A stretch of DNA of 64,000 nucleotides from Bacteroidales bacterium. GTDB lineage: Bacteria; Bacteroidota; Bacteroidia; Bacteroidales; UBA932. The translations under genes and the position numbers were made by a program. The notes below the pieces were generated by a model that had not been told where the DNA came from, did no database searches, and was given only the letters and a program-made list of their open reading frames with translations. The stretch is from the NCBI GenBank assembly GCA_016286385.1, contig JAEESO010000002.1, positions 185,346 to 249,345 of the forward strand, read 5' to 3'. Within the stretch, counting starts at the first letter, position 1; each line of letters begins with the position of its first letter. This document shows, one piece after another, positions 5,793 to 22,498 of the stretch.

Positions 5793-6029
5793 ATGTTTGA
5801 TAAAGTACAGGCAATCCTTGCAAAGCAGCTGAGGCTGGACCCTTCCAAGATTACTCCCCAGTCACTTATCAAGAAAGACCTTGGGGCCGATTCCCTTGAT
5901 ATCCTCCAGCTCCTCATGAGAATCGAGGACCAGTACGGAATTGTGATTCCGGACCAGGCCCTCGCAAAATTCGAGACTGTTGCTGACGTTGTTGCTTACC
6001 TTGAGCAGCAGGACGTAAAGATTGACTAA
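5793..6029 (+). CDS. Acyl carrier protein
   Basis: 78 residues from ATG 5793 (MFDKVQAILAKQ). The ORF track start at 5742 would overlap plsX and add a non-ACP N terminus, so it was not used. The phosphopantetheine serine lies in LGADSLDILQL near residue 37, with the usual acidic helix after it. It directly follows plsX and is the likely acyl acceptor or donor for it. It differs clearly from the two ACPs of the aryl-polyene-like cluster. Its stop overlaps by a few bases the stop of the convergent gene on the other strand. Confidence 0.88.
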   Translation: MFDKVQAILAKQLRLDPSKITPQSLIKKDLGADSLDILQLLMRIEDQYGIVIPDQALAKFETVADVVAYLEQQDVKID

Positions 6030-7681
6030 CCGCCGATAAATTCTCGGAGCAACGAAGTTGCCGGAATTTCCTTATCCGGAACGGGTGTGAAGTAATGGAT
6101 GAACTTCAGGAGGCGGTGGCTCTCACTGTACTCCGGACAGTTCTGGGGAACACTACGCAGAATGGGCTCTGCGTGGTTTTTCATTACTGCAAACTCAATG
6201 AGATAGGCACTGTTGAACATTACATCGGCCATCTCCTGATAGGGATAGATCCACTTTTCCTCAGCATCCAGTACGTTCTGCCAGTTGGAGATTGATTCCC
6301 TGGCGGTGAAGGCGCCCTTGTTGTAATCACGGACAATACGTCTCAGAAGACGGTTGTCGCTGGTGGGAATGGCGTTGTGGTCGTCCAGGTTGGTGCCTGT
6401 GAGGGTGTTGATGAAAATCCTGAACTTGGATTCTTCCGGAATGTCTGATGTAAGGGCTGGATTAAGGGCGTGGATGCCTTCAATGAGGAGGATACTCCCC
6501 TGCTCCAGTTTCAGGACCTTTCCGTTGTATTCGCGAAGACCCGTCACAAAGTTGTATTCCGGGACGTTTACCTCCTCACCGTTGATAAGGGCCATGATAT
6601 GGCTCTCCATGAGGGCGTGGTCCACGGTATCAAAATTATCGAAGTCATAGGAACCGTCCGGGAACTTGGGGGTGTCCACGCGGTTCACAAAATAGTCGTC
6701 CGTAGAAATTGAGATGGGCTTGAGGCCGCAGGCCTTGAGCTGGATTGAGAGCCTCTTGCAGAAAGTGGTTTTGCCGGAAGATGAAGGGCCGGTGATAAGG
6801 ACCACTTTCAGAGGGGTTTCGCCGCGGTTACGGCGCTCTATTTCCTCTGCTATCTTCACTATCTTCTTTTCCTGGAGGGCTTCCGCTATCTGGATAAGTT
6901 CGCTGGCGTGGCCGTTCAGAAATGCCTGATTGACGTCTCCTACGGTATTGAGGCCCATTATTATGTTCCAGCGCAGAGCTTCCTGGAAGATTTCGTAGGT
7001 TTTGGGCTGATCGATGAAATCGGCCACCTTTGTGGGATCCTCCTTTGAAGGCCCAAGAAGCACAAGACCGTCCTTGTATGGCTTGATATCCCACACGGTA
7101 AGATATCCGGTGCTGGGGACAAGCTTGCCGTAATAATAGTCCGAGGTTTCTCCAAGGGTGTAATAGTCCGTATAGGCCTCACCGCTTGTCTCAAGGAGCT
7201 TCACCTTGTCCATGTAGCCGCTCTTGCGGAATTCCTTGATGGCTTTGTCGGTCTGGACGTCGTAGCGGTGGAAGGGCATGTCTTTCTCTACCAGCTCCTT
7301 CATCCTTGCCTCTACGGCCGATATCTCCTCCATGGTGATCTCCGAATTATCGGCCTTTCTCAGATGGATGAATATTCCGTGGCCGATAGGATGCTCCATA
7401 TACAGCTTGATATCCGGGAAAAGGTCTACGGCAGCCTTGTACAGTAAAAAAGCAAGCGAGCGGCAATACACTCTCATTCCGCTCGCTTCACGGACGTCCA
7501 TGAATTCTACGTCCTTATTTTGGTAAACCTTGAATTTCAGGCCCTGTGATACGTTGTTCACCTTTGCAGACACTGCAGGATAAGGCAGGTTGGGGTTGAA
7601 CTCAGAGAGCATTTGGGCAAGTGAGGTGCCCTCCGGAAAACGCTTGGACTCTTTGGTGTTTTTGCAATATACCTGTACCAT
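6026..7681 (-). CDS. TGS-domain uridine kinase-like protein
   Basis: 551 residues. An N-terminal TGS-like domain (about 1-60) and a region like the second domain of threonyl-tRNA synthetase are followed by a phosphoribulokinase/uridine kinase domain with the P-loop GPSSSGKT at 298-305, STDDYF, and IEGIHALNP. This domain order is a known uncharacterised nucleoside-kinase-like family in Bacteroidota. Uridine or cytidine phosphorylation is plausible, and the N-terminal part may bind RNA or a nucleotide. It converges on the ACP gene with a 4-nt stop overlap. A -7 box (TACCTTTG at 7706-7713, minus strand) lies 24 nt before its ATG. Confidence 0.75.
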   Translation of the reverse strand: MVQVYCKNTKESKRFPEGTSLAQMLSEFNPNLPYPAVSAKVNNVSQGLKFKVYQNKDVEFMDVREASGMRVYCRSLAFLLYKAAVDLFPDIKLYMEHPIGHGIFIHLRKADNSEITMEEISAVEARMKELVEKDMPFHRYDVQTDKAIKEFRKSGYMDKVKLLETSGEAYTDYYTLGETSDYYYGKLVPSTGYLTVWDIKPYKDGLVLLGPSKEDPTKVADFIDQPKTYEIFQEALRWNIIMGLNTVGDVNQAFLNGHASELIQIAEALQEKKIVKIAEEIERRNRGETPLKVVLITGPSSSGKTTFCKRLSIQLKACGLKPISISTDDYFVNRVDTPKFPDGSYDFDNFDTVDHALMESHIMALINGEEVNVPEYNFVTGLREYNGKVLKLEQGSILLIEGIHALNPALTSDIPEESKFRIFINTLTGTNLDDHNAIPTSDNRLLRRIVRDYNKGAFTARESISNWQNVLDAEEKWIYPYQEMADVMFNSAYLIEFAVMKNHAEPILRSVPQNCPEYSESHRLLKFIHYFTPVPDKEIPATSLLREFIGG

Positions 7682-7730: not shown

Positions 7731-8831
7731 TTACAATAGCGGACCGGCGTAAATTTTAAGTAAAATGTCTTTGAGTTCCAGCGGATAATCCCGGGAAATA
7801 TCGGAAATATATTTCTTGAAGGCCTTCAGCTCCGCATCAGTGTATGAATGGGAGCGCTTGCCGTCAAGGATATCCTTGGCTATGTAATTTGTGGGCCACA
7901 GGCGGTATGCATCCTTTATGCGGCTGTCAATGAGGGCCGCCACTTCCCTGTTGAAGGCCGATGAACTGAGTCCCCGGAGAGCTTCAAGCTCTTCCTTTCT
8001 TATGGGCTCCGTCACCGCCAGGTGCACCCTTCCCTTTTTCTGGGTGATGCCCGTCAGGATGGAATTCAGGTCCTCTCCCGGCTTTTTCACATACGGCTGG
8101 CCGGAGGATTTGGCGTAGAGCTCCAGGGCCTTCAGAAGGTCACAGGGCTCCCATTCGTAAGATATGGCAAGGGGGCAGATATTAAGGCTTGCAAGGGCCT
8201 CTACCTTGTCCTGACCGCCTCCAAGGCCGAACATCTTGATGATGCCCTGGTCCGTGGAATCAAGTCCGTCCTTTGTGCGTCCGTTTCTCTGGGCTATCCA
8301 CACGCTCTCATGTTTTTCGCGGATAGCGTAGTGCATGTACTCGGAGACATAGCGGGACTTCAGGAGGAAATCCCGTGGAGATGTAACCGTAGTGGGCCTT
8401 TCGATGCGGAACATCTTGTTGCTTTTCCCGGTATCAATGACCAGCTGCCCCTGCATTAGATTTGCTCCGAAAGTAATTTCAGAAGTGCGCCTGCCTGCAT
8501 CCAGGAGGAGAACCTGGAGGAATGCCGCGTCCAGCATAATGTCCCTGTGGTTTGACACAAAAAGGTAATCAGTGCCTGGGTCCAGCCTTTCCATCCCCTC
8601 CACTGAAAGACCATCCGTGGTCTTGTCCACAACGGAGTAGATGGCTTTGTACATGAACCTTCTCTGGAACTCTTCAGTTGTGCGGCAGCTTCCGATAATA
8701 CCGGCAATCTCGTGGATGGGCTTTTCCGGGAAAAGGAAATCACATACCAGCGGGAAATATTTGTCGGAGACTATCCTCTGCATTGCTGCAGGGATTTCAG
8801 AGTCATTGTATGGCCGGATGTCATCAAACAT
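7731..8831 (-). CDS. Lysophospholipid/glycerol-type acyltransferase
   Basis: 366 residues. The segment LFVSNHRDIMLDAAFL (about residue 110) is the acyltransferase block I of a PlsB/PlsC-related family found in Bacteroidota, although the spacing from His to the second Asp is one longer than the usual HX4D. FRIERPTTVTS and the IAQRNGRTKDGLD region correspond to later acyltransferase blocks. It is the last gene of the run ligase-acyltransferase, with a 8-nt overlap with the ligase. Transfer of an acyl group made by the aryl-polyene-like cluster, or simply of a fatty acid, onto a glycerol lipid is inferred. Confidence 0.65.
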   Translation of the reverse strand: MFDDIRPYNDSEIPAAMQRIVSDKYFPLVCDFLFPEKPIHEIAGIIGSCRTTEEFQRRFMYKAIYSVVDKTTDGLSVEGMERLDPGTDYLFVSNHRDIMLDAAFLQVLLLDAGRRTSEITFGANLMQGQLVIDTGKSNKMFRIERPTTVTSPRDFLLKSRYVSEYMHYAIREKHESVWIAQRNGRTKDGLDSTDQGIIKMFGLGGGQDKVEALASLNICPLAISYEWEPCDLLKALELYAKSSGQPYVKKPGEDLNSILTGITQKKGRVHLAVTEPIRKEELEALRGLSSSAFNREVAALIDSRIKDAYRLWPTNYIAKDILDGKRSHSYTDAELKAFKKYISDISRDYPLELKDILLKIYAGPLL

Positions 8832-10125
8832 GTTTGGCTCTCCTGTCTATGAATTTAACGGGTTTACGGGACTTTGCGGGATAATTGATGGCGTGAATCT
8901 CCGGAACAGGCTGGATCTCTATGCGCGGAGCAACCCTTACCCTTGAGCGGAAACGGTCCTTGAGGTCCTTTACGCAATCAAATTCAGGCTCATACTTGAG
9001 GCCGATCTTCACAAGGACATCGTCAGTTCCGGCATCTGAATCCAGGACCTCTATGACGTAGTTCTCCACGTAAGGGGTGTTGTCCAGGACGTCGTTGAGT
9101 GCCGGAGGGTAAAGCGTTGTGCCCTTGAGCTTGATCATATTGTTTTTTCGGCCCACTATTGGCGTGAGGCGGAAACTATTGCGTCCGCATTTGCAGGGCT
9201 GGGTTATCTTTGCAGCAATATCTCCGGTGCGGAACCGCAGGAGCGGCATGCCTTCTACACCAAGGGTAGTAATAACAATCTCCCCCACTTGTCCGTCCGG
9301 TACCGGCATATTGTCAGGGCCGATAATCTCCACAATCACCAGCTCCGGATGCACATGACCTCCGCAGGCGTACGGGCATTCTGAGAACGTTGCGCCCATC
9401 TCCGTGGAAGAGTATGTGGCGTAGAGTTCCACGTCCCATTTTTCCTTGATCCGGCGGCCAAGGAGATTGAGGGATAAATCCTGTTCCCTAAGGCCCTCGC
9501 CTATGCCGATGATACGCTTGATGGATGAGTTCTTGTAATCGATGCCATGGTCCTCGGCCCACTGGATAAGGCGCAGGATAAAGGAGGGCACGCACATTAT
9601 GGTGTCCGGTTTCAGGCGCTGGATTGTGTCCCACTGGAGTTCCGGAATGCCGTTACCAACGCGGATGACGCCCGCGCCCAGTTCCCTGATGCCAAGGAAA
9701 TAGGCAAGGCCGGCCATGAAACGCTTATCCAGCGTAACCATGAGCTGCACTATGCTCCCGGGGCTTACACCTGCGCAGGAAAAACTCTTTTTCTCATTGA
9801 ATGCAAGCCTCTGGAGATCCTTTTCCGTGCACCCGAATGTGACGGGATCTCCCATAGTGCCGGATGTGGTTATATAGTCAATCACCTTCTCCCTGGGAAC
9901 GCAGAGGAATTCGTCGTTGAACAGCTGAAGGTCCTTTTTCTCTGTGAAAGGAATCTTCTGAAGGTCCTCTATGGTTTTGATGCGGTCAATCTCTATATGG
10001 CACTTCTGAAACATCCTGCGGTAATACTTGGAATTGGCCTGCAGGTATTCCAGGGCCTCTTTGAGCAGCCCTTCCTGGAAGGATTTTATCTCTTCCGCGC
10101 TTTTGAATTCTATGTCCTGCTTCAT
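8824..10125 (-). CDS. AMP-dependent ligase, phenylacetate-CoA ligase type
   Basis: 433 residues, matching the PaaK-type adenylating enzymes. Visible motifs are TTSGTMGDPVTFG (AMP/phosphate loop, near 100), YATYSSTEMGATF, and FRTGDIAAKI, followed by the small C-terminal domain (VGRKNNMIKLKGTTLYP). Such ligases activate an aromatic starter acid in aryl-polyene and flexirubin pathways. Its strand, its overlap with the downstream acyltransferase, and the exporter two genes upstream place it in that cluster. Whether the starter is loaded on CoA or directly on one of the ACPs cannot be seen. Confidence 0.8.
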   Translation of the reverse strand: MKQDIEFKSAEEIKSFQEGLLKEALEYLQANSKYYRRMFQKCHIEIDRIKTIEDLQKIPFTEKKDLQLFNDEFLCVPREKVIDYITTSGTMGDPVTFGCTEKDLQRLAFNEKKSFSCAGVSPGSIVQLMVTLDKRFMAGLAYFLGIRELGAGVIRVGNGIPELQWDTIQRLKPDTIMCVPSFILRLIQWAEDHGIDYKNSSIKRIIGIGEGLREQDLSLNLLGRRIKEKWDVELYATYSSTEMGATFSECPYACGGHVHPELVIVEIIGPDNMPVPDGQVGEIVITTLGVEGMPLLRFRTGDIAAKITQPCKCGRNSFRLTPIVGRKNNMIKLKGTTLYPPALNDVLDNTPYVENYVIEVLDSDAGTDDVLVKIGLKYEPEFDCVKDLKDRFRSRVRVAPRIEIQPVPEIHAINYPAKSRKPVKFIDRRAKHV

Positions 10126-10128
10126 CCT

Positions 10129-10995
10129 TTAGAAAGACATGTTGTGGAGCCAGGAGATGAATTCCTGGAACCAGTTCTGGGTTTCTTCTGTGTACTTTTC
10201 CGGGTTCACTCCAAAGCCGTGACCGCCTTCAGCGTACTGGATATAGTGGTGAGGCACGTGTTTAGAGCTTAAGGCCGAGTCAAGCAGTACGGAGTTGTGG
10301 TAATCCACTACTTCGTCGTCCTGGCAGTTAAGGATGAATACCGGGGGCATATCGGCCCTGGCATTCAGCTCCACTGACAGGGATTCACGGAGGTCCTTCT
10401 TGCCGGTATAGCGTTCTCCAAGGAGGCCCAGGCGGGAACGCTTGTGCACGTAGCGGTCATCACTCATAGTGACAACCGGATAGATGGCTGCGGCAAAATC
10501 CGGACGCAGAGAAACGGCGGGTTTAAGCTTGTACTTCTCCAGGTAATTGGTATCAAAGAACTCCGCACTCATCATCGCAAGGTGGCCGCCGGCGCTGAAA
10601 CCAATCACGCCAAGGGGGCAGCTGTAGCGGGTTCTCACAATCTGTATGGCCCTCTGGAGGTCACAGATCATGTCAGGATGGCGGTGGCCCCTGAGGACGC
10701 TGCGGTACTTGGACACAAACTCAAGCTTACCTGCAACGCGGTAACGGAGTACGTAGGCTACATAGCCTTCCTTTGCAAGGGCCTCTGCAACCATTGCGCC
10801 TTCACTTTTCTGGTCCAGCCAGTGGTAACTACCGCCGGGGCACACGATGATGGCCGCGATGGGCTTCCCTTCCGGAAGGTATTCCGTGAGGGTTACCTGC
10901 TTTGCCGCGCAGGACGTACCGTCCCAAATCTTAATCTGTGCTTCTGCAATTATGGGAAGAAGCACTGCTGCAAGAATCAGTATATATCTTTTCAT
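10129..10995 (-). CDS. Secreted alpha/beta hydrolase (acetylxylan/lipase-type esterase)
   Basis: 288 residues from the ATG at 10995, chosen because it begins a clear signal peptide (MKRYILILAAVLLPIIAEAQ); the longer ORF start at 11025 adds ten residues before it and runs into the upstream gene. The oxyanion region CPGGSYHWLD and the nucleophile elbow GVIGFSAGGHLA (Ser near 140) define an esterase of the BD-FAE/Axe kind, with Asp and His near DDEVVDYHNS and EGGHGFG. It sits between the exporter and the AMP ligase, so it may trim or release an ester-linked product in the periplasm. Carbohydrate esterase activity is the alternative. Confidence 0.75.
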   Translation of the reverse strand: MKRYILILAAVLLPIIAEAQIKIWDGTSCAAKQVTLTEYLPEGKPIAAIIVCPGGSYHWLDQKSEGAMVAEALAKEGYVAYVLRYRVAGKLEFVSKYRSVLRGHRHPDMICDLQRAIQIVRTRYSCPLGVIGFSAGGHLAMMSAEFFDTNYLEKYKLKPAVSLRPDFAAAIYPVVTMSDDRYVHKRSRLGLLGERYTGKKDLRESLSVELNARADMPPVFILNCQDDEVVDYHNSVLLDSALSSKHVPHHYIQYAEGGHGFGVNPEKYTEETQNWFQEFISWLHNMSF

Positions 10996-11009
10996 ACCCG
11001 AATATATTA

Positions 11010-13709
11010 TCATTTTTTGTACCAATCTTGGTAAAAATGCCTCATTTGCCGTGTAAAAGCCCGTATTTCAGCGTCTGCCGGTACTCTGAGACGCTGCCCT
11101 ACCTCCATTGAAAGATGCCCCTTCCTGAGGAAGAAATCGTGCTTTGGAAGAACGTCGGTAAAGCCTTTTATACAAAGGGGAAGAACGTCTATTCCAAGCT
11201 CCTGGGCTGTAAGGAAGGCTCCGCGGTGGAAGCGAAGGATCTCACCGTCCAGGCTGCGGGTGCCTTCAGGGAATATCACAATGGAGTATCCCCTTTCAAC
11301 CAGGTTCCTTACGTGCTCTGCATTGCCAAAGTGGCCGTTTGAAGCCGGATAGAATTCCGCTTTCCTCAGGATATACCTGTAAAGCGGGAAGTTCCATACC
11401 CATTCATTGGTGGTGAATGCCAGTTTGGGATTCAGGGCCATGATGGCAAGGACGTCAAGGTGGCTCTGGTGGTTGCACACATAAATCGCAGGCTTTGAGA
11501 AATCCTCTCCATGAGGGTTAATGAGCCTGTATCTTGCGCCTGGAACAGTGTAAATGGCTGCCTTGGAGATGGCCTGGATAACTTTATGGAAGCGGAGTCT
11601 CTTTTTCTCGGAGTCAGGGCCGATAAGGAAGAATAGGTTTGCCCAGATTATGAGCCCGCCCATCACAATGCCGTACAGGAGGCATATCCACAGGGTTTTG
11701 AGGATGGAGCCGATGGTGACAGGGCTCCGGCGCGGCTGTCCTTTCTTGGTGGTAGCCCAGCGGTAAAGGACCGGCGGAATATAGCAGGCCATGACAACCA
11801 CTGTAATCATTCCGATCACCGTCACAAGCCCAAGGGAACGCATTGCAGGGTGCTTTGCGAATGCCAGCACACCTATGCCGATAAACATTATGAGGGCGCT
11901 GAGGATAACCGCATTCTTAAAGGAATGGAGGATCTTATTTCCCGTTTTGCGCTCATACACCAGGCCTTCCGTGATAAAGATGGTGTAGTCGTCGCCCATG
12001 CCAAAGATGAACGTTGCCAGGATAATGTTCACTATGTTGAAGCTGAGGCCGCTGAGCCCCATGATCCCTTCAATCCAAATCCAGCTTATGGCAAGCGGCA
12101 GGAATGCCACAACTGCCAGCGAGAAACTCTTGAAGCTGAGGATAAGGAACAGGAAAACAATAATGGAACACACAAGGCCGATGGTGTCGAAATCCTCATT
12201 CAGGGCCTCTACAAGGCTGGTTTTGGGCTGCGAAGTAGCTGCTTTGTCCAGGGAATCAAAGAACGGCTGGAAAGCGTGGGCTGTGAATCCGTGCCTTAGG
12301 CCGGCGGCTATGAGGGTATCGGAAAGTGCGGGATAATTATCGGCCAGGTATTTCCACCCGTCCTGCCCGGCTGTTCCGTCCTGCCCGGCCTGACCGGGCA
12401 TCTCACTTAGCCCTTCCAGCACCGCAAAACCCTTCTCCTGCTCCTCCGTCATATAATTGATATTGTGAAGATTGGTATCAAATCCAACCTTACGGGACTG
12501 GAATGCAAAGAATACGGTTGCAGCAAGGAAGGCGCAGAAAATAATCCTGCGGGTTTTCTTTGACGGATTGAAGTTCCTGTCAAGGTCCAGTTTGAGAGTG
12601 TTTCTGGGACCTTTTGCCTCCGGGATGAATACCGGCAGGAAAAAGAGCACGAAGACTATGGTCCCAAGAAGCATCATTGCCCCTATGAATCCAAAGTCCC
12701 TGAGGGCGGGAGCCTTAAGAAGAAGAAGGCCCAGGAATGCGCCTACTGTTGTAATATTGCCAGTAAGAAGTGGTTCTACCTGCTGTGCCAGAGCTTCCCT
12801 CTTGTCCGGTTCATACTTGAGGTGATCCACATAATGCAGAGGATAGTTCACGGCAATTCCTATAACCGTGCACCCTATTCCAAGGATTATTATGGATATG
12901 CTTGGCCGGAAAAGGGCAATTATTCCAAGGGCGAATACAGCGCCAAATGCTATGGAAATAAGTATCCACAGTACATCCTGGAAGCGCTTGTAACTGAACC
13001 AGAGCACTACGCAGATAAGTAGCGCGGCAATTGCAAGGGCAAGGAATGAATCCTTCTTGATGCGGCTTGAGTTCTCCACAGCAACCTCGGGGCCACCTGT
13101 AGAGTAGATATGCACGGAAGGATACTCTGCCTGAATGGCGGCCTTGACGGTGTTCAGACTGTCAATAAGTGCAGCATTTCGGGAGCTCTCGCTGCCTCCA
13201 TAGGGAGAGTCAAAGAAGATGATGCCAGTTTCACCGTCCTGGGTGAAAAGATAACCGTCTTCAATCCTGACCTTTGGCGCTGAGGAATTAAGCCTCAGGG
13301 GATCCTGCCTTACATAATTGGAAAGGAAGGGATTAGGAGACATCAGAAGGGTTTTGTCCTCTTCAAGCACCTTGTCAATGTATCCGGGAACGGAGAGAAG
13401 GGAATCAATCCTTGCCGGGTCAGGATTGACCGAAAACATATCGGTATCGGCCCCTGGCATATCCCAGGCAAGGTCAAAGGCGTACATTGCTTCCAGTTTC
13501 TCATCAAGGGAGCCGCCCTCAAAGAGCACTGCCATTTTCTCCTGCCCCTTAACCTCCTCACGCTGGGGAAGGAAGTCAGTGATATCCTCATTGAAGGTGA
13601 GCCTGGATGCACTGAGGGCGCAAAAACCAACCACTATACCTAATATGAGTGCCGCCAGTCCTTTATGCGAGGACAGGAAGTCATAGATATTGAGGATAAA
13701 GCCTTTCAT
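11010..13709 (-). CDS. MMPL exporter fused to a PlsC acyltransferase
   Basis: 899 residues. Two RND/MMPL halves: helix 1 near residue 20, a periplasmic domain, five helices to about 370, then helix 7, a second periplasmic domain, and GMGDDYTIFITEG within the second helix bundle. After about residue 670 a PlsC domain follows with NHQSHLD and FPEGTRS, the complete acyltransferase pair of motifs. The order exporter then cytosolic acyltransferase suggests acylation of a lipid at the point of export. In aryl-polyene and flexirubin clusters MMPL exporters move the pigment lipid. A short in-frame 18-bp repeat lies in the second periplasmic domain (see repeat at 12358). The start is close behind a -7 box. 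Confidence 0.85.
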   Translation of the reverse strand: MKGFILNIYDFLSSHKGLAALILGIVVGFCALSASRLTFNEDITDFLPQREEVKGQEKMAVLFEGGSLDEKLEAMYAFDLAWDMPGADTDMFSVNPDPARIDSLLSVPGYIDKVLEEDKTLLMSPNPFLSNYVRQDPLRLNSSAPKVRIEDGYLFTQDGETGIIFFDSPYGGSESSRNAALIDSLNTVKAAIQAEYPSVHIYSTGGPEVAVENSSRIKKDSFLALAIAALLICVVLWFSYKRFQDVLWILISIAFGAVFALGIIALFRPSISIIILGIGCTVIGIAVNYPLHYVDHLKYEPDKREALAQQVEPLLTGNITTVGAFLGLLLLKAPALRDFGFIGAMMLLGTIVFVLFFLPVFIPEAKGPRNTLKLDLDRNFNPSKKTRRIIFCAFLAATVFFAFQSRKVGFDTNLHNINYMTEEQEKGFAVLEGLSEMPGQAGQDGTAGQDGWKYLADNYPALSDTLIAAGLRHGFTAHAFQPFFDSLDKAATSQPKTSLVEALNEDFDTIGLVCSIIVFLFLILSFKSFSLAVVAFLPLAISWIWIEGIMGLSGLSFNIVNIILATFIFGMGDDYTIFITEGLVYERKTGNKILHSFKNAVILSALIMFIGIGVLAFAKHPAMRSLGLVTVIGMITVVVMACYIPPVLYRWATTKKGQPRRSPVTIGSILKTLWICLLYGIVMGGLIIWANLFFLIGPDSEKKRLRFHKVIQAISKAAIYTVPGARYRLINPHGEDFSKPAIYVCNHQSHLDVLAIMALNPKLAFTTNEWVWNFPLYRYILRKAEFYPASNGHFGNAEHVRNLVERGYSIVIFPEGTRSLDGEILRFHRGAFLTAQELGIDVLPLCIKGFTDVLPKHDFFLRKGHLSMEVGQRLRVPADAEIRAFTRQMRHFYQDWYKK
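12358..12401 (-). repeat. In-frame 18-bp tandem repeat in the exporter gene
   Basis: The plus strand shows CCGTCCTGCCCGGC twice, 18 bp apart, followed by a related inverted copy (GCCCGGcctgaCCGGGC). In the protein this gives GQAGQDGTAGQDG, a Gly-rich insertion in the second periplasmic domain near residue 445. The paralogue at 1-1180 shows no such motif. Repeat number could change by slippage without breaking the frame. Confidence 0.7.
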
Positions 13710-14553: not shown

Positions 14554-15282
14554 TTAGGTGAAGAGTTTTCGGAGGAGTATGCGGGGCCAGCCGTAGAGGA
14601 GGGCAAGGGGAAGGCCGATAATATTCACGATGGTGATACGCATGAAGTCCTGGAACGGACGGAAGTGGGTAACGCGGTCCTTGGGGTAATTTACACGGAC
14701 CTGGACGGGAACCAGTGACAGGCCTTTCCAGGCGCTGAAAAGAAGGAGTGAAAGCTCTGCTTCATAACGGTTTCCAACCACCTTCAGAGAGGGTAAATCA
14801 CGCAGTGGATATAGCCTGAATCCGGTTTGGGTGTCCATAAGACGGATACCGGTATAAGCGGTGAACCAGAAGTTAGAGAAGCGGTTGGCAAATGAGCCGC
14901 CGGCATTGGCTCCGCGGGTGGTCCTGGATCCAACAACAAGGGTTCTCTCCCCCTTCGCTTCAAGAAGAAGCGGAATGTCCTCAGGGTAATGTTGAGCATC
15001 CGAGTCAATGGTTACGGCATAAGTGTACCCCTTCTCCTGGGCCCATCTGAAGGCGGTTTTTAGGGCTGCGCCCTTGCCTAAATTATGGGGATGTGTAAGG
15101 ACTGTGACAGGAGATTGCCGGTCGGGGCCGTCAATGACGGAATCAAGCACGTCCCTGGTGCCATCCGTGCAGCCATCTTCTACCACAATAACGGGAAGGC
15201 CCAGGGCGAGGGTGCGCTCCAGCACCTCCCGAAGGGTGCCAGCATTGTTATAAGTGGGTATGACGACTACGGTATCTGTCAT
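14554..15282 (-). CDS. Family 2 glycosyltransferase (dolichol-phosphate-mannose-synthase-like)
   Basis: 242 residues. The GT-A fold signature is clear: VVIPTYNNAGTLREVL at the N terminus, VVEDGCTDGT, TIDSDAQHYPED (metal-binding DxD-like), and a QTGFRLYP acceptor loop near 165. One hydrophobic stretch near the C terminus (ITIVNIIGLPLALLYG) suggests membrane attachment. GT2 enzymes of this type are regular members of aryl-polyene and flexirubin clusters. It overlaps the hotdog gene by 4 nt and is the last gene of the minus-strand operon that begins at 22498. Confidence 0.85.
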   Translation of the reverse strand: MTDTVVVIPTYNNAGTLREVLERTLALGLPVIVVEDGCTDGTRDVLDSVIDGPDRQSPVTVLTHPHNLGKGAALKTAFRWAQEKGYTYAVTIDSDAQHYPEDIPLLLEAKGERTLVVGSRTTRGANAGGSFANRFSNFWFTAYTGIRLMDTQTGFRLYPLRDLPSLKVVGNRYEAELSLLLFSAWKGLSLVPVQVRVNYPKDRVTHFRPFQDFMRITIVNIIGLPLALLYGWPRILLRKLFT

Positions 15283-15599
15283 ACGGAAAGCGACATTCTG
15301 GCGTGCTGCGTACCGTCTATGGAAAGGATGCTCACACTAACGGCATTGTCATCTTTGAACTCCCATTCAAAACGAACCTCCGTACCGTCTCCGGGAAGAA
15401 CCGGAGCCACAAACTTTATTTCCCTGGCACTTACAAGTTTTTTGCCCATGAGTTCAAGGGCTATCTGCAGAAGTGTTACTCCGGGAGTTATGGGGTACTC
15501 CGGGAAATGTGCCTTATAGATGGGGCTCTCAGGGAGAAGACGCACCATGGCGCTGTCCTCCTCCTTTGAAACCACCGTATATAATACTCCTTCAAGCAT
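15279..15599 (-). CDS. Hotdog-fold 3-hydroxyacyl-ACP dehydratase (FabZ/ApeI-like)
   Basis: 106 residues. HFPEYPITPGVTLLQIALEL is the FabZ-type active-site segment: His, then the Pro-Gly turn leading into the hot-dog helix with a Glu. It would remove water from 3-hydroxyacyl-ACP to build the conjugated polyene. The gene abuts the LolA-like gene and overlaps the glycosyltransferase by 4 nt. It is shorter than FabZ, as are the dehydratase subunits of aryl-polyene clusters, which can pair with a second hotdog protein (19871-20296 here). Confidence 0.78.
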   Translation of the reverse strand: MLEGVLYTVVSKEEDSAMVRLLPESPIYKAHFPEYPITPGVTLLQIALELMGKKLVSAREIKFVAPVLPGDGTEVRFEWEFKDDNAVSVSILSIDGTQHARMSLSV

Positions 15600-16025
15600 T
15601 TACTTTACGTCTTTGAAATCTATCCTTGTCCAGCCGTCATCCGTGCCTTCAAGAAAAACACTCTGGACTTTGCTTGATACGGGATCAAGAGTTAGCGTTA
15701 TTCGGCGGAACATCTGCCGTAAATCCCTCCTGAGAGGTTCCAGAATAATTGTTCCCTCCCCTTCTTCCTTAACTTTGAAATCCTTTTCCGTGGGCATACG
15801 GAAGCGGGATCGGGGGGAATCATCGGCCCCAAATTCCGTGACGGACTGAACAGGCTCCTTAACCTCCCAGCGAAGGTATGACGGTTCCTTCAGGACAACG
15901 GTTCCGCTGCTCTGGAGGTCTTCCGTGAGAAGCGGGCTGTGCCTTACCTGCGTCCAGCTGGCCTCAAAGGATGCCGGCGGGACAAGGTCCAGGAATAGGC
16001 TCAGTATGATGGATACAAGAAACAT
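15600..16025 (-). CDS. LolA-like periplasmic lipid carrier
   Basis: 141 residues from ATG 16025, which overlaps the stop of the DMT gene (TAATG); the upstream ORF start is inside that gene. A hydrophobic leader (MFLVSIILSLFLDLVPPASF) is followed by a beta-rich domain including LQSSGTVVLKEPSYLRWEV, typical of LolA-fold proteins. Such carriers recur in aryl-polyene clusters and probably shuttle the pigment lipid across the periplasm to the outer membrane after MMPL export. Confidence 0.75.
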   Translation of the reverse strand: MFLVSIILSLFLDLVPPASFEASWTQVRHSPLLTEDLQSSGTVVLKEPSYLRWEVKEPVQSVTEFGADDSPRSRFRMPTEKDFKVKEEGEGTIILEPLRRDLRQMFRRITLTLDPVSSKVQSVFLEGTDDGWTRIDFKDVK

Positions 16026-16381
16026 TACTTGGCTATGAGGAAACAGCCACCAAGGATAAGGAAAACGCCCACCCACTGCTGCCATTCAACGGTTTCCTTG
16101 AAGAAAATGATGGAAACGAACATGGCAAACAGGAAACTAAGGGATGTGAGCGGATACACCTGGTGGAAGGGATAGTTCCTTACCATGTAAACCCATTCCA
16201 CCATCATTGCGATAGCGCAGATGCCGGAAAGGGCCAGAGTCCAGTTAAGGAATATACCGTCACGGAAAAAGGCCCAGCTCCAGCTGAAGGAGGGCATTTT
16301 GTCACTGGCAACCTTGAACAGTGACTGGCATGTGCACATCAGGATAGCCTGCGTGACGGCAAGAAAAATCAGTCTGAACAT
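16025..16381 (-). CDS. Small DMT/EamA-type membrane protein
   Basis: 118 residues with four hydrophobic helices; helix 3 and 4 regions are VYPLTSLSFLFAMFVSIIFF and the C-terminal WVGVFLILGGCFLIA, as in ArnE/EmrE-like half transporters. It probably works as a dimer or multimer in the inner membrane and could flip a lipid intermediate. It sits between the ketosynthase-like gene (overlap 13 nt) and the LolA-like gene (overlap 1 nt), a position that fits a role in moving the product. Confidence 0.7.
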   Translation of the reverse strand: MFRLIFLAVTQAILMCTCQSLFKVASDKMPSFSWSWAFFRDGIFLNWTLALSGICAIAMMVEWVYMVRNYPFHQVYPLTSLSFLFAMFVSIIFFKETVEWQQWVGVFLILGGCFLIAK

Positions 16382-16887
16382 AAAACTATTGCTATGGCCC
16401 TCTCAAAACCTGGCAGTCCGGAAGCGTCCATTTTCTCCGTACGCTCGTCGTACCAGCCAACAAGGGCGGTGTCAATATCTCCCAGGCCGATCTGCATCAC
16501 GGCGTCTTCGAGGGCGCTGAGAAGGGACCTCCCGGGGTGTGAATAAGTTGCATTGTAGCCATGGCAGCCAAGCTTTATGGCAACCACCGAGCCAATGGTA
16601 TTGTGAGTGGAATTCATGAAATGTACGGGCCTCATTGCGGCATCTTCTATGCCAAGGATCCCGTTTAGGAAGAATTCCGAGTTTTCCATGCAGCCATAAT
16701 CCGTAGCCGTGATAATGGCATCAGGACACTTGATCTGTGCCTTCTCAAGAGCCTTTACAGAGCACCAGAGAGCCCTTTTGAGGAGCCTTCCCATACGGCG
16801 TGCCTCCATGGGAGGGATAACCTCCTTGAAGTCAGGGTCTTCCTTCCCAAGGGATACTATGGAGAGTATTTTTACATTACGCATCAT
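16369..16887 (-). CDS. Truncated ketosynthase-like protein (chain-length-factor type)
   Basis: 172 residues from ATG 16887; a longer ORF start would run further into the ketosynthase gene. NSTHNTIGSVVAIKLGCHGYNATYS resembles the thiolase-fold segment around the ketosynthase nucleophile, but the position is TYSHPGRSLL with no active-site Cys. The ketosynthase C-terminal His motifs are also absent. It is therefore not a condensing enzyme by itself. Similar small proteins accompany ketosynthases in flexirubin/aryl-polyene clusters, and a partner or chain-length role is inferred. Confidence 0.65.
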   Translation of the reverse strand: MMRNVKILSIVSLGKEDPDFKEVIPPMEARRMGRLLKRALWCSVKALEKAQIKCPDAIITATDYGCMENSEFFLNGILGIEDAAMRPVHFMNSTHNTIGSVVAIKLGCHGYNATYSHPGRSLLSALEDAVMQIGLGDIDTALVGWYDERTEKMDASGLPGFERAIAIVLCSD

Positions 16888-18097
16888 AGGCCGACAGGAT
16901 AATAGAAGAATCATTGCCGCCAAAGCCGAAGGCATTGCATAGGATGTGCCTAAGCTCTTTCTGGAGAGGTTCAGTCTGGGGCACTATGCAGGAGGGATCC
17001 GGCGTGCTCCAGTTAAGTTGCTGTGGCACAAAACCATTCTCAAGGGCAAGCAAGCAGAACACAGCCTTAATGGAGCCTGATGCGCTTGTGGTATGCCCAG
17101 TAAAGGATTTTGTGGAAGAAACCGGAGGGAGACTCTCCCCGAAGATACGCCTGATTGCAGCACTTTCAGAGGCATCATTGTTGGGCGTTCCGGTGCCATG
17201 CGCATTGACATAATCTATGGCCGATACATCAAGTCCAGCCATTTCAAGCGCCTTTCTCATAGCAAGGAAAGCACCCTCCCCGTCAGGAGAAGAAGCAGTC
17301 TGGTGGAAAGCGTCGCAGGCATTTCCCCAGCCGCTTAGAACCGCAATGGGCTTTACTCCACGCCGGAGCGCACTTTCCTCCGTTTCCAGCACAAGATAGG
17401 CCGCTCCCTCGCCAAGATTAAGGCCAGCCCTTGTGGCGTCAAACGGCCTGCAGGGCTCCTTATCCAGGATCATGAGGGAATTAAAGCCATGGAAATGATA
17501 GGCGGAAAGACTTTCGCTGCCGCCACACACCACGCACTGGAACTTACCGCTGCGGATAAGATTTGCCCCGTAAATGATGGCATTTGTGGCCGATGAACAG
17601 GCTGTGGAAAGCGTTGTGGCAAACTTTGCCCCGCCAAGGAACTCCACTGCCAGATCCGTTGACGCGCCGCAGCTATGAAGCGCCGACACCCTTGGATAAA
17701 TCCTCTCCGTAATATCCATTCCCCCAACAGTAGTCCCTCCTATGACTGGGATATCCGCAAGGGAGAGGCTTTCTGGAGTTTTTTTCACGGAAGAAAGCCT
17801 GTTACTCCCGGGAGTCTCTATGAAAGCCTGAGATAGCGCTTCCTGGAGCGCCAGGATGGACATAAGGGTGGTCCTGGGCCAGTTGGAGGCCATGGAAAGC
17901 GGAACGCCGGCAAGGGCCGCCATCTCCTCGTTGGAGAGCGGAACCTCCCCTACCGGAAGCCCTTCAGGGCCGCCTTTGAGGTACTTTACAGGAGCTATGC
18001 CGCTGCGGCAGGAGCGCAGCGCCTGAAGGCTCACGGCCTTGCCGCAGCCAAGGGCGCTTACAACGCCGGCGCCGGTTATGACAAGCCTTCCTGCCAC
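16877..18097 (-). CDS. Beta-ketoacyl-ACP synthase, complete (FabF type)
   Basis: 406 residues. The full catalytic triad is visible: Cys in LSTACSSATNAI, His in NAHGTGTPNNDASE, and His in FTGHTTSASGSIKAVF, plus the FGFGGNDSSIIL C-terminal loop. It condenses malonyl-ACP with the growing chain. It abuts an ACP gene (stop and start adjacent) and overlaps the truncated ketosynthase-like gene. Together with the second ketosynthase at 18843 it provides elongation for the aryl-polyene-like pathway. Confidence 0.9.
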   Translation of the reverse strand: MAGRLVITGAGVVSALGCGKAVSLQALRSCRSGIAPVKYLKGGPEGLPVGEVPLSNEEMAALAGVPLSMASNWPRTTLMSILALQEALSQAFIETPGSNRLSSVKKTPESLSLADIPVIGGTTVGGMDITERIYPRVSALHSCGASTDLAVEFLGGAKFATTLSTACSSATNAIIYGANLIRSGKFQCVVCGGSESLSAYHFHGFNSLMILDKEPCRPFDATRAGLNLGEGAAYLVLETEESALRRGVKPIAVLSGWGNACDAFHQTASSPDGEGAFLAMRKALEMAGLDVSAIDYVNAHGTGTPNNDASESAAIRRIFGESLPPVSSTKSFTGHTTSASGSIKAVFCLLALENGFVPQQLNWSTPDPSCIVPQTEPLQKELRHILCNAFGFGGNDSSIILSAYDA

Positions 18098-18358
18098 CTA
18101 CTTAGTCCTGTTATCGGCAATATACTGCGCCATAACGGCTACGCTGCGGAAAACCTCCTTGCCTTTTGAAGGGGAATCCAGACGGATACCGTAATTCTTT
18201 TCCATGAGCACTATGAGCTCAAGGACGTCAATTGAATCAAGGCCAAGGCCGTCGTCTCCGAAGAGAGGGGCATCATTGTCTATATCCTCCGGAGTCATGC
18301 CGTCCAGATTCAGTGAATCAATAATCTTGAGCTTGAGCTCTGTAATCAAATTTTCCAT
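18098..18358 (-). CDS. Acyl carrier protein of the aryl-polyene-like cluster
   Basis: 86 residues. GLGLDSIDVLELIVLMEKNYG holds the phosphopantetheine Ser near residue 42. The sequence is more like the ApeE/ApeF type carriers than the housekeeping ACP. It lies directly upstream of the complete ketosynthase. Confidence 0.88.
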   Translation of the reverse strand: MENLITELKLKIIDSLNLDGMTPEDIDNDAPLFGDDGLGLDSIDVLELIVLMEKNYGIRLDSPSKGKEVFRSVAVMAQYIADNRTK

Positions 18359-18363
18359 ATTTC

Positions 18364-18846
18364 TTATTTAGTTCCTATCCATGCCATGGCCGTCCACTCA
18401 GAGTCTGAGGGGCAGTCTATCCAGGCCACAATGGCGTCACGGGTTATCCTGTCCTGAAACGCCTGGCGCACAATGGCGTCAATGAGCGGCCGGTCATATT
18501 TCTCCAAAACGTATGCCGATGTCTCTCCCTCATATTTATTCCTTATGGAAATCTCTCCGGCAACAATGTTTGGAAGCGTATATACAAAGAGCGCCGGGGA
18601 CGGAAAATCCTCCATGCTCTTTGCGTAATTGAGGTCATTTGCAAGGCAGCCGTTACGGCTGAAAACAAGCACTGCGCGGTCCTCGCGGGGGGTGAATCGG
18701 GCCGGCTCATCCTTAACCAGCATCTCCGTAAGAAGGAAGCCCAGCTTAGAGAGGGTGTCCATCTTGAAGAATTTGGGATAATTACCCACCAGCTCCCTGT
18801 AGAGAGCGGTAAGGCTGGCGCCGGAAGGGATGCTCACTGCTTTCAT
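18364..18846 (-). CDS. Ketosynthase N-domain-like protein, non-catalytic
   Basis: 160 residues. ALFVYTLPNIVAGEISIRNKYEGET resembles the ketosynthase region in which the nucleophile sits (usually followed by a Cys loop), but no Cys or the HGT/GH motifs are present. Small proteins of this kind are repeated members of flexirubin-type clusters and are annotated as 3-oxoacyl synthase-like. A scaffolding or heterodimer role is inferred. It overlaps the next ketosynthase by 4 nt (ATGA-type coupling) and is followed by an ACP gene. Confidence 0.6.
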   Translation of the reverse strand: MKAVSIPSGASLTALYRELVGNYPKFFKMDTLSKLGFLLTEMLVKDEPARFTPREDRAVLVFSRNGCLANDLNYAKSMEDFPSPALFVYTLPNIVAGEISIRNKYEGETSAYVLEKYDRPLIDAIVRQAFQDRITRDAIVAWIDCPSDSEWTAMAWIGTK

Positions 18847-19871
18847 AGGGCACCTCCTTTTCTGAAGACCATGGCTCCGTTAACTCCCCCAAAGCCGGAA
18901 AGGAGCTTGATAAAGAGTTTCCCTTTTGCGGGCCTTTCCTGAGCTGATATATTAACGGGGTATGTGACTCCCATCTCATGGAAACCCTTGGTGGGGAGGA
19001 CAATCCCCTTGTCAAATGCGGCCATGGAGACAATTGCCTCAAGTATTCCGGCAGCGCCAAGGGTGTGGCCGAAAACGCCTTTGAGGGCATTTATGGGCAC
19101 ATCCGAAAGCCCGGCGCGGTGAAGCGCGATGGATTCCATTTCATCGTTGTAAGGCGTTGCAGTGCCGTGGACGCTGATAAAGGCGATATCCTCCTTATCA
19201 ATGCCGTCCATCACGTAGCGGAGGCATTTGTAGGAGCCTTCTCCGGTGCGTGACGGGCCTGAGATGTGATTGGCGTCGTTGCGTATAACGCCGTCAGATA
19301 TTTCCCAGGGGCCTTCCTTGGCCGATAATACAATAGCTGCAGCGGCTTCTCCAAGATTAAGCCCCTGGCGGTCTTTGTCAAACGGCCTGCAGGGCTCCGG
19401 AGAGAGGGCTTTAAGGCACTCAAAACCGCTGTGGATAAAGTGTGAATGGACCTCTGCGCCAACAACTACCACATTATCATACTCCCCGCTCCTGATCATC
19501 CTTATGCCCTGAAGGAGGGCTGCAATGCCGGAAATGCATGCGTTGGAAACCACGATGGGAGAGGTTTTTATGCCGATTGCATCTGCAATATTGCGGGCGC
19601 TGGCGGCAAGGGAGATATCGGCCTTGCCGATATGCTCTACATTTCCTTTTGTGGTGGAAAGGACAAGGCCGGTGCGGGGCGTTAAATCAATGCCCTGAAT
19701 AGCCTTTCTGGCAGCCTCTATGGCTATGGTTTCAAAGAATGACGCGCCAGGGAAGCCGCTTTTGTTAAACAAGCGGCGGCTTCGGCCCTCACGCGCCGCT
19801 TCAAACACCTCCTCTAAGGTGTTCCCAAGCGGGGTTACAAGCCCTTCTCCTATGCAATAAACCTTTGTCAC
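18843..19871 (-). CDS. Beta-ketoacyl-ACP synthase, complete
   Basis: 342 residues, short for this family because the N-terminal region is compact. Catalytic residues are present: Cys in VVSNACISGIAAL, His in SVHGTATPYNDE, His in GVFGHTLGAAGILE. The final LSGFGGVNGAMVF loop is standard. It is probably the initiation or second elongation ketosynthase of the pathway. It overlaps its neighbours on both sides by 1 to 4 nt. Confidence 0.88.
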   Translation of the reverse strand: MTKVYCIGEGLVTPLGNTLEEVFEAAREGRSRRLFNKSGFPGASFFETIAIEAARKAIQGIDLTPRTGLVLSTTKGNVEHIGKADISLAASARNIADAIGIKTSPIVVSNACISGIAALLQGIRMIRSGEYDNVVVVGAEVHSHFIHSGFECLKALSPEPCRPFDKDRQGLNLGEAAAAIVLSAKEGPWEISDGVIRNDANHISGPSRTGEGSYKCLRYVMDGIDKEDIAFISVHGTATPYNDEMESIALHRAGLSDVPINALKGVFGHTLGAAGILEAIVSMAAFDKGIVLPTKGFHEMGVTYPVNISAQERPAKGKLFIKLLSGFGGVNGAMVFRKGGAL

Positions 19872-20296
19872 TAAGATGCCTGCGCTGATTTTAATGATGC
19901 CTTGGCAATGAGTTCTTCCCCTACCCTAACCTCAATATCCGTCATTGAAACATTGAAGAAGTCCTGCACCAGGTGCACGGTGGTGGTGAGCTCCTCTCCC
20001 TTTTTGGGAAGCCTTGTGATAGAGTATTTCTTTACCTGGCCGATATAACCGATGGATACCGGGAGATTCAGCACGAAGCGCTGGCGATACCCGGAGCGGG
20101 CGGCGCTTGCCTGGGCCATATGCTCCAGGAGCCCTGCCGCGCTTAGCTCTTCCCCATCCATAAGCATATGTCCGGAGCCAACGGTAAGGTGCACCACTGT
20201 GACTTCCTCCGTGTATGACAGGAGTCTGTCCACAAAGCGGAAAGGCGGCTGCTGGGGCAGCAGCAGATCCATGTCTATATCTTCAAAAGGCTTCAT
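19871..20296 (-). CDS. Hotdog-fold protein, aryl-polyene dehydratase partner
   Basis: 141 residues. FRFVDRLLSYTEEVTVVHLTV and GLLEHMAQASAARSGY match ApeP/FabA-like hotdog proteins. The helix Glu is kept (LLEHMAQ), but the HFPxxPG element seen in the 15279 protein is replaced by GSGHMLMDGEELSAAG, so catalysis may be shared: two unlike hotdog proteins forming one dehydratase. It lies between the ketosynthase and LpxL-like genes in a continuous operon. Confidence 0.7.
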   Translation of the reverse strand: MKPFEDIDMDLLLPQQPPFRFVDRLLSYTEEVTVVHLTVGSGHMLMDGEELSAAGLLEHMAQASAARSGYRQRFVLNLPVSIGYIGQVKKYSITRLPKKGEELTTTVHLVQDFFNVSMTDIEVRVGEELIAKASLKSAQAS

Positions 20297-21160
20297 CTAT
20301 GCCCAAAAATCGTAAAAATTGTACCATTGGTCCGGCCACCGCCTTACCACGGATTCCACTTCCTTTGCAAATGCCTGCGCAAGTTCTTTGATGTTTCCTC
20401 CATCCACTGGTTGGAGGATTACCTTATAACTCTTCATGCCAGTCTTGATGCAGAAGACAGCCAGCGCGCTCACTTCCCTGGAATGAACAAGGGTGAAAGG
20501 CCCAGCTGGGAAGGAAGCATCGGCCCCAAGAAAACTGCATCTGACGGCCTTGGAAGAGCCAAAGACGCGGTCTGCGGGAAGAGACGCAACCTCACCTTGC
20601 GCAAGCGCATTGTTGAGCTTGAAAAGGTGGGACATGTCATCGCTTACCGGGACCATCGTAACGTTGCAGTCCTCAAACATGCGCTCCCTGTTGGCCATCA
20701 CGGTGGCGGTTTCTCCGGCGTACACAAGCACGTTCATGTGCTTGGGGCTCAGGAGCGTGTAACCGGCCATCTCGTAGTTGCCGATATGTGAACTGAGGAT
20801 TACAAAGCCGTCCTTACCGCTGCAGTAAAGCTGGTAAAGACCGCTGTCCTCACGCTCCACATTGAACTTCTTGCCGGCATAAGCGGCAAACCTGTCAAGC
20901 ACCACCATGCCCATATTGAACATATTAAGGTATACGTGGAAGGCGCTTCCAAAGCGGCCGTAGCCCATCCTCTTGCGGAAGAAACGCCAGGATGCGAGGC
21001 GTCCCTTGCCGTCAAACAGGATGTAGAAAGGGATTACAAGGGCCATTACGCCGTACAGGAGCCATAATGGCAGTATGCGGTACAGCCTGATGAGAGCTCT
21101 CTGCATCCAGGGCGTACCGTCTGTCTTTCCCGTCCAGGCGCTATGCTCCGTATTAGGCAA
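20297..21160 (-). CDS. LpxL/HtrB-family lipid acyltransferase
   Basis: 287 residues. One N-terminal membrane helix (ILPLWLLYGVMALVIPFYILF) and the family motif ILSSHIGNYEMAGY (HX4E near residue 125), followed by the PADRVFGSSKAVRCSFLGADASF segment, identify the lipid A acyltransferase family. In aryl-polyene clusters the homologue (ApeD type) transfers acyl groups to build the membrane anchor. It overlaps the ACP gene by 8 nt. It is not likely to be the housekeeping LpxL because of its operon. Confidence 0.82.
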   Translation of the reverse strand: MPNTEHSAWTGKTDGTPWMQRALIRLYRILPLWLLYGVMALVIPFYILFDGKGRLASWRFFRKRMGYGRFGSAFHVYLNMFNMGMVVLDRFAAYAGKKFNVEREDSGLYQLYCSGKDGFVILSSHIGNYEMAGYTLLSPKHMNVLVYAGETATVMANRERMFEDCNVTMVPVSDDMSHLFKLNNALAQGEVASLPADRVFGSSKAVRCSFLGADASFPAGPFTLVHSREVSALAVFCIKTGMKSYKVILQPVDGGNIKELAQAFAKEVESVVRRWPDQWYNFYDFWA

Positions 21161-21395
21161 CGTGATCCTGAATGAACTTAGTGAACTGGTCCAGGGTGAT
21201 GAGCTCCTTGAAATCCTCGGGCTTCATCTTATATCCAAACTGGTCTTCCACCAGTACAACTACGTCCACTACTTCCAGGGAGTCAATCCCAAGGTCTTCC
21301 TTGAGGCGTGCGCCGCCTTCAATCTTCTCTTCTTCAATTTCAAGGTCTTCCACAAGGAAGTTTTTAACCTTCTCATTAATCTCTTCGATACTCAT
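21153..21395 (-). CDS. Second acyl carrier protein of the cluster
   Basis: 80 residues with DLGIDSLEVVDVVVLVEDQFG; the Ser near residue 37 carries phosphopantetheine. It overlaps the LpxL-like gene and lies 2 nt after the methyltransferase stop. Being next to the acyltransferase, it may carry the acyl donor. Confidence 0.9.
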   Translation of the reverse strand: MSIEEINEKVKNFLVEDLEIEEEKIEGGARLKEDLGIDSLEVVDVVVLVEDQFGYKMKPEDFKELITLDQFTKFIQDHVA

Positions 21396-21397
21396 AA

Positions 21398-22498
21398 CTA
21401 CTGTTTGTTTAAGGTTTTACATACAAGAATGCTGTGTCCCTGTCCAAGCCCGTCATGGATGGCTTCAACCTCAAGGCCTGCTTCACGCACAAGACGTATC
21501 ATATCGTCCGAGTGGTACATCTTTGAGTTGCCGTTTGCCATAGCCGTGAAATAGAGGCTGGTCATAGTAAGGCAGAAGGATGCAGGCTCATATTTCTGGC
21601 GGTCCCAGAAGGTTTCCATTACAAGGAGCCTTGCCCCCGGCTTCATAATCTTCCTTGCGCGGCTCAGGATAGAGACAATCTCATCCTCTGCAAAGCAGTC
21701 CAGGAACTGACTCATCCAGATAATGTCCGGATTGACGTCCGTGGGGAATTCATTACTCCTGTCAAGAAGATTCATGGGCCTGGCATCTATCCTTTCCTCC
21801 CCGGGCATCCCGGCTACTGCCTTTCTCATGAGGGCTATCTGCTGTGGAAGGTCCACTATGGTAACCTTCACGTCCTCATTATATGCCACTGCGCGCTGGG
21901 CAAAGCGGCCGGTATTGCCTCCTACGTCCATTATCTTCAGTGGCTTGAATGAGAAGATTAATTCCAGGGCCTGCAGGAAAGAATGGTCTGAGTAGAAGTG
22001 ATCAAAACCAAACCAGCTCTTCTGAACCTGCGGAGGCAGTGATGACAGGCCCTCATATATTGTGGGCCAGGGACCAAAGTGGTCAAGACCTGCCGGGCGG
22101 CCTTCCTTCAGGGCTTCCTCAAGGTGGAAGAAGCCTTCATAATTCACATCGTGATTGAAGTCAATGTTTACGCGTGTGGAAGGGTCTGTAAGGAGGAACC
22201 ATCCGGTTTTGGTGATACTGTACCTGTCAGTTGCAGTGTCAATAATAACCGTGCCGATAGAAAGGGATGCTTCAAGGAGAACCTTGGCAGCATACATGCT
22301 TATGCCGGCCTTCCCTGCCACCTCTTCAAGAGTTAAAGGATTGTCCCTCAGGGCCTCCAGAATGCCAAACTTCAGCATAAGGCGGCTTGCCTGGAATACT
22401 ATGGGACCAAATGCGATGAACTGGGCGAGCCTTTGGGCATCGCGGGCAGGAAGGTTATCTTTGGTGTAAGCCTTCTCTATGTTGGGAAACAGATTCAT
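21398..22498 (-). CDS. SAM-dependent O-methyltransferase
   Basis: 366 residues. An N-terminal winged-helix dimerisation domain (LMLKFGILEALRDNPLTLEEVAGKAGI) is followed by a Rossmann methyltransferase domain with IMDVGGNTGRFAQRAV (motif I, about residue 190) and DIIWMSQFLDCF. This is the plant/bacterial O-methyltransferase class, regularly found in aryl-polyene and flexirubin clusters, where it methylates the aryl head group. It is the first gene of the minus-strand operon that runs to 14554, and has a -7 box 17 nt upstream. Confidence 0.82.
   Translation of the reverse strand: MNLFPNIEKAYTKDNLPARDAQRLAQFIAFGPIVFQASRLMLKFGILEALRDNPLTLEEVAGKAGISMYAAKVLLEASLSIGTVIIDTATDRYSITKTGWFLLTDPSTRVNIDFNHDVNYEGFFHLEEALKEGRPAGLDHFGPWPTIYEGLSSLPPQVQKSWFGFDHFYSDHSFLQALELIFSFKPLKIMDVGGNTGRFAQRAVAYNEDVKVTIVDLPQQIALMRKAVAGMPGEERIDARPMNLLDRSNEFPTDVNPDIIWMSQFLDCFAEDEIVSILSRARKIMKPGARLLVMETFWDRQKYEPASFCLTMTSLYFTAMANGNSKMYHSDDMIRLVREAGLEVEAIHDGLGQGHSILVCKTLNKQ

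Follow-up and report, generated by a model that had tools for sequence, protein, structure and literature searches.

Where are the ketoreductase and the aromatic ammonia lyase of an aryl-polyene-like operon that carries neither? The question is raised by a minus-strand operon at positions 14554-22498 of the 64,000-nucleotide stretch analyzed here (the window), which belongs to the draft genome of a rumen Bacteroidales bacterium (2.64 Mb in 78 contigs, 97% complete, contamination 5.62%). The first-pass annotation had found neither gene and offered two explanations: a product unlike the known aryl polyenes, or missing steps encoded at other loci. Our results showed that both genes are indeed absent from the operon and from the flanking blocks of the window, but not from the genome. 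We consider it very probable that the operon and the neighboring block at 7.7-13.7 kb make up the core of an aryl-polyene pathway of the flexirubin type, and that the genes for its first step, for reduction and for initiation lie elsewhere in the genome.

Lyase, ketoreductase and third ketosynthase on other contigs

Genes were assigned to flexirubin families by the NCBIfam equivalog cut-offs, which are 700 bits for FlxA, 340 for FlxB, 560 for FlxJ and 520 for FlxY. An FlxA-type tyrosine ammonia-lyase (TAL) was found on contig C49 (2688-4208; NF053541, 829.4 bits), and an FlxB-type ketoreductase (KR) of the short-chain dehydrogenase/reductase (SDR) family on contig C59 (36185-36901; NF053542, 381.7 bits). 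Adjoining KR, with one flavin adenine dinucleotide (FAD) oxidoreductase gene between them, is an ApeR-like third ketosynthase (KS3; 34028-35239), which is 63% identical to the ketosynthase beside KR in the relative G101. Its PDB relatives are FabB-type ketosynthases, including PpApeR (4ewg) and AbApeR (7f27). Thus, a genome search returned both sought enzymes, on other contigs and not just outside the cluster, and since the same types lie inside the cluster in a congener and in other relatives, the suggestion that other loci supply the missing steps was borne out. As predicted from its genes, the pathway is complete and split over three loci, in the window, on C49 and on C59.

The CrtD-like FAD oxidoreductase between KS3 and KR (L022:5236-6189, C59) has 317 residues, and the versions in relatives' clusters usually have about 500. 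SDR genes also occur on C11, C50 and C53, and on C20 in the vicinity of two FabH-like genes; these were rejected as the ketoreductase because the C59 SDR is the ortholog of the cluster KR. Cluster-type KR is bimodal, with full-length members at 58-73% identity (280-370 bits) and other full-length SDRs at no more than 43% (at most 176 bits). The C20 locus (L019:9421-12378), where an SDR gene and two genes for FabH-like ketosynthases are consecutive, is of a polysaccharide type and lies outside the pigment pathway. A C22 lyase, which lies in a histidine-utilization locus and falls in the lower of two lyase groups, was likewise rejected as the pathway lyase.

With the assembly flagged as 5.62% contaminated, C49 and C59 could be foreign contigs, and the organism itself could lack the lyase, KR and KS3. 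However, two separately assembled, near-identical metagenome-assembled genomes, RUG784 (L083) and RGIG7961 (L084), whose methyltransferases are 100% and 96% identical to that of the window, respectively, carry TAL at 97-98% and KR at 99-100% identity. The congeners G185 and G153 carry both at 78-85% identity. In addition, KS3, the FAD oxidoreductase and KR form a separate block in RGIG7961 and G185, and C49 and C59 agree with the window in guanine-cytosine content and tetranucleotide profile. Because the enzymes recur at such identities in separately assembled genomes, we give contamination almost no credence.

Relatives also bear on how the split arose. In the congener G164 (L068+L069), the genes form a single run, KR-TAL-FAD oxidoreductase-KS3-acyltransferase-FlxY-esterase-MMPL-acyltransferase-GT2-hotdog B-LolA-DMT-KSs2-KS2-ACP2-KS1-hotdog A-LpxL-ACP1-methyltransferase, in which KSs1 was not recovered in the open reading frame (ORF) map. 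At five other loci (L085, L086, L087, L090 and L154), KS3, the FAD oxidoreductase and KR are divergent and directly upstream of the methyltransferase. Based on these arrangements, the ancestral layout was probably contiguous and was split later in the lineage of the present genome. The contiguous clusters of many other Bacteroidales, for example those of G164 and G101 (L034), have the same genes in largely the same order as the present genome, but they hold TAL, KR and KS3 inside. Here, a divergent deoxyhypusine-synthase-like gene (PF01916, 22585-23553) occupies the position that KS3, the FAD oxidoreductase and KR have in congeners.

A non-aryl or unreduced product, made by an organism that truly lacks the ketoreductase and the aromatic starter pathway, would also fit a window without either gene in its flanking blocks. 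Among 80 named FlxJ loci, mostly from gut and rumen Bacteroidales, the fetched stretch held KS3 in 57, KR in 51 and TAL in only 15. Moreover, in two well-assembled genomes, G025 and G055 (L040 and L039), FlxJ and KR are present and a TAL-type lyase was not found; the polyene starter may have another route there. In contrast, FlxA and FlxB types exceed their equivalog cut-offs in the present and near-identical genomes, and FlxY, which in C. pinensis is specific for 4-coumarate (PMC3992019), is encoded at 8.8 kb. Across the order, strong FlxJ (at least 494 bits) occurs in 20 of 149 genomes, of which 19 carry KR of the cluster type, in one case cut short by the end of the contig. We regard a non-aryl or unreduced product as very unlikely, and a flexirubin-type pathway completed in trans as the better reading.

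Ketosynthases and their predicted chain-length-factor partners

The operon had been described as containing two complete ketosynthases and two small proteins of ketosynthase fold without the catalytic Cys, and both descriptions held. A Cys-His-His set is present in KS1 (C112/H235/H269) and in KS2, whose catalytic motifs are TACSSA, HGTGTP and GHTTSASG. The PDB relatives of KS2 include the ketosynthase-chain length factor (KS-CLF) complexes 6kxd, 7f28 and 6qsp and the two-chain ketosynthase entry 9s5h. Of the small proteins, KSs2 was recognized by Pfam and PDB profiles, its first match being A. baumannii ApeC (7f28_A, E 2.7e-11), with X. doucetiae ApeC among the best (6qsp_B, E 2.9e-7). KSs1 was recognized by fold only, and gave no match in Pfam, NCBIfam or PDB sequence and profile searches, where the sole profile match below E 1e-3 was a designed protein. 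An AlphaFold2 (AF2) model of KSs1 from 13 sequences (predicted local distance difference test 86, predicted template modeling score 0.81) was compared with known structures by Foldseek. The ApeC chains 7f28_A/C and 6qsp_B ranked above any full ketosynthase, at template modeling scores of ~0.6 and 15-20% identity. By hhalign, the similarity between the KSs1 and KSs2 families is weak (probability 67%, E 5e-5).

Fused ORFs in relatives indicated which proteins belong together. KS1 was fused to KSs1 in 40 cases and KS2 to KSs2 in 41, with no crossed fusion among the 81, a total that may include a small number of genomes twice. Since all fusions are cognate, they support two KS-CLF pairs, and together with the KSs2 profile and the KSs1 structure model they support KSs1 and KSs2 as ApeC-type CLF subunits, one per ketosynthase, in the predicted complexes KS1-KSs1 and KS2-KSs2. 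In a phylogenetic tree, KS1, KS2 and KS3 each formed their own group, with low support for the KS2 group (0.305). A precedent for such small subunits is the ApeO:ApeC pair, a KS-CLF complex in which A. baumannii ApeC is a CLF with one thiolase domain (PMC8358021). KSs2 has 188 residues here and 176-264 in several congeners, as compared to 309-366 in many other Bacteroidales and in flavobacterial-type genomes. The half-size form probably arose in the present lineage when the C-terminal half, the second thiolase domain, was lost.

KSs1 and KSs2 are also present in the fetched clusters of flavobacterial-type genomes, which carry DarB, so the two small proteins belong to the usual content of flexirubin-type clusters. 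For C. pinensis, FlxC, I, L, N and O were listed as five putative ketosynthases (PMC3992019); judging by gene order, their likely counterparts are KS3, KS1, KSs1, KS2 and KSs2, respectively. A search of open-licence papers returned none that assigned two CLFs to flexirubin clusters. We lean toward the view that flexirubin-type synthases use two KS-CLF pairs and an ApeR-like ketosynthase, perhaps splitting initiation from elongation or early from late elongation, that KSs1 represents an undescribed CLF family, and that a CLF in the present genus is losing its second thiolase domain. The predicted architecture of two KS-CLF pairs is modestly new; the rest is a known pathway in a rearranged layout.

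Gene content of the operon and its flanks

The operon consists of 13 tightly packed minus-strand genes, neighbors overlapping or lying at most 5 bp apart (Table 1). The first-pass annotation was right about the genes, their order, strand and packing; its count of twelve was not, as its own list sums to 13. Because the gene order is kept in dozens of Bacteroidales genomes, it is not due to chance. Scanning upstream of the operon for the Bacteroidetes promoter pattern returned no match. The true start of KSs2 is probably near 16884. In addition, 6026-7681 encodes a uridine-kinase-like protein of 551 residues, the N-terminus of which weakly matches threonyl-tRNA synthetase.

Table 1. Genes of the operon and of the neighboring block, with the evidence for each assignment
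Feature	Position	Strand	Evidence
FlxJ-family S-adenosylmethionine (SAM) methyltransferase, probable aryl-ring methylation	21398..22498	-	NCBIfam NF053543, 575.7 bits
Acyl carrier protein 1 (ACP1)	21153..21395	-	PF00550, 40.8 bits
LpxL-type acyltransferase	20297..21160	-	PF03279, 54.1 bits
Hotdog A, ApeP/FabZ-like dehydratase subunit	19871..20296	-	Profile: FabZ E 2.3e-9, ApeP 6qsr_B E 5.9e-5
KS1, compact ketosynthase with Cys-His-His	18843..19871	-	Best PDB match ApeO 6qsp_A
KSs1, single-thiolase-domain chain-length-factor-like KS1 partner, without catalytic Cys	18364..18846	-	AF2 model, Foldseek, fusions
Acyl carrier protein 2 (ACP2)	18098..18358	-	PF00550; NF006617, 77.4 bits (cut-off 70)
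KS2, FabF-like ketosynthase with Cys-His-His	16877..18097	-	PF00109 and PF02801
KSs2, ApeC-type half-size chain length factor, KS2 partner	16369..16935	-	Best profile match 7f28_A; fusions
DMT/ArnE-ArnF-like half transporter	16025..16381	-	PF00892, 38 bits; ArnF NF002816, 40.2 bits, under cut-off
LolA-like periplasmic carrier, flexirubin LolA2-type	15600..16085	-	PF03548, 25.6 bits; NF053544 LolA2_flexi, 46.4 bits, under cut-off 125
Hotdog B, ApeI-like dehydratase subunit	15279..15599	-	Profile: ApeI 6qsr_A E 1.7e-10
GT2 glycosyltransferase	14554..15282	-	PF00535, 86.8 bits
MMPL-type exporter fused to phospholipid/glycerol-type acyltransferase	11010..13709	-	PF03176 and PF01553; synteny in relatives
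Alpha/beta-hydrolase (esterase)	10129..11025	-	PF20434; syntenic in L068, L072, L074
FlxY acyl-CoA ligase (4-coumarate-CoA ligase)	8824..10125	-	NCBIfam NF053551, 692 bits
Acyltransferase-like protein	7731..8831	-	PF01553, 22.1 bits, slightly under cut-off; syntenic

The two hotdog proteins were read against His and Glu, which we take to be the catalytic residues of FabZ. Hotdog A keeps the Glu (E58) and is without the catalytic His. Hotdog B keeps the His of an HFPxxPxxPGV motif (H31), with Gln at the position of the FabZ catalytic Glu. These complementary halves of a FabZ-type site suggest that hotdog A and hotdog B would form an obligate heterodimer with a composite active site.

Proposed pathway and product class

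The gene content, family membership, synteny, in-trans genes of near-identical genomes and cognate KS-CLF fusions described above are direct observations. Each enzymatic step set out here, and the product, is proposed by analogy with studied relatives: the assayed FlxA and FlxY of C. pinensis (PMC3992019) are the basis for the first steps, and studies of aryl-polyene synthases (PMC8253772, PMC8358021) the model for elongation. FlxA would deaminate tyrosine to 4-coumarate, which FlxY would convert to 4-coumaroyl-CoA for loading onto an ACP. Malonyl units would then be added by KS3, KS1-KSs1 and KS2-KSs2, with each keto group reduced by FlxB. Dehydration by hotdog A and hotdog B, as by ApeP:ApeI, without enoyl reduction, would leave a conjugated polyene, the aryl ring of which FlxJ would methylate. 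The LpxL-type and other acyltransferases, GT2, the half-transporter, the LolA-like carrier and the MMPL exporter may attach the product and deliver it to the outer membrane.

The predicted pathway shares features with two known systems. With the aryl-polyene clusters of E. coli, Xenorhabdus doucetiae and Acinetobacter baumannii, it shares a ketosynthase with an ApeC-type CLF, an ApeR-like ketosynthase and ApeI- and ApeP-like dehydratases, as judged by PDB and profile matches, as well as two ACPs, a FabG-type KR and a CoA ligase. It differs in having two KS-CLF pairs instead of one, and a tyrosine ammonia-lyase. With the flxA-flxY cluster of C. pinensis and Flavobacterium johnsoniae, it has the FlxA, FlxB, FlxJ and FlxY equivalogs in common; that cluster likewise lists five ketosynthase-type proteins, two dehydratases, an acyltransferase, LolA, a glycosyltransferase and an exporter (PMC3992019). 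In contrast to it, the present genome has TAL, KR and KS3 at other loci, a half-size KSs2, smaller accessory proteins and no DarB.

These equivalogs, and a gene order similar to that of DarB-carrying genomes, might indicate a true flexirubin, in which the polyene is esterified to a dialkylresorcinol. However, the best DarB match in the whole genome was 32.9 bits against a cut-off of 450, so that of the previously noted absence of DarA and DarB, the latter stands genome-wide, and DarA was not searched for separately. DarB exceeded the cut-off in 10 of 10 flavobacterial-type genomes, which served as a positive control, and in none of 7 other Bacteroidales. A true flexirubin is thus scarcely credible here. 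Since no DarB was found, the polyene would not be esterified to a dialkylresorcinol, and we expect an aryl polyene that is flexirubin-like but lacks this moiety. Nothing that we found favors a product outside the flexirubin/aryl-polyene class, as had been raised at first.

Several points weigh against a flexirubin-type pathway spread over three loci. The pathway is known here from genes, and the product class follows from them by prediction. The substrate specificity of ammonia-lyases is not safely predictable from sequence (PMC3992019). The flexirubin cut-offs were passed by FlxA, FlxB, FlxJ and FlxY only, with LolA2_flexi under its cut-off, and a draft assembly of this completeness and contamination leaves the distances among the three loci unfixed.

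What emerges is an ordinary pathway in an unusual layout. A pigment cluster that looks incomplete on its own can turn out to be complete once three loci are considered together, so genome mining that relies on clusters can misjudge pathways of this kind. In addition, the cognate fusions allow each of the five ketosynthase-type proteins of flexirubin clusters, listed in the published cluster description as putative ketosynthases, to be given a subunit role that can be tested.

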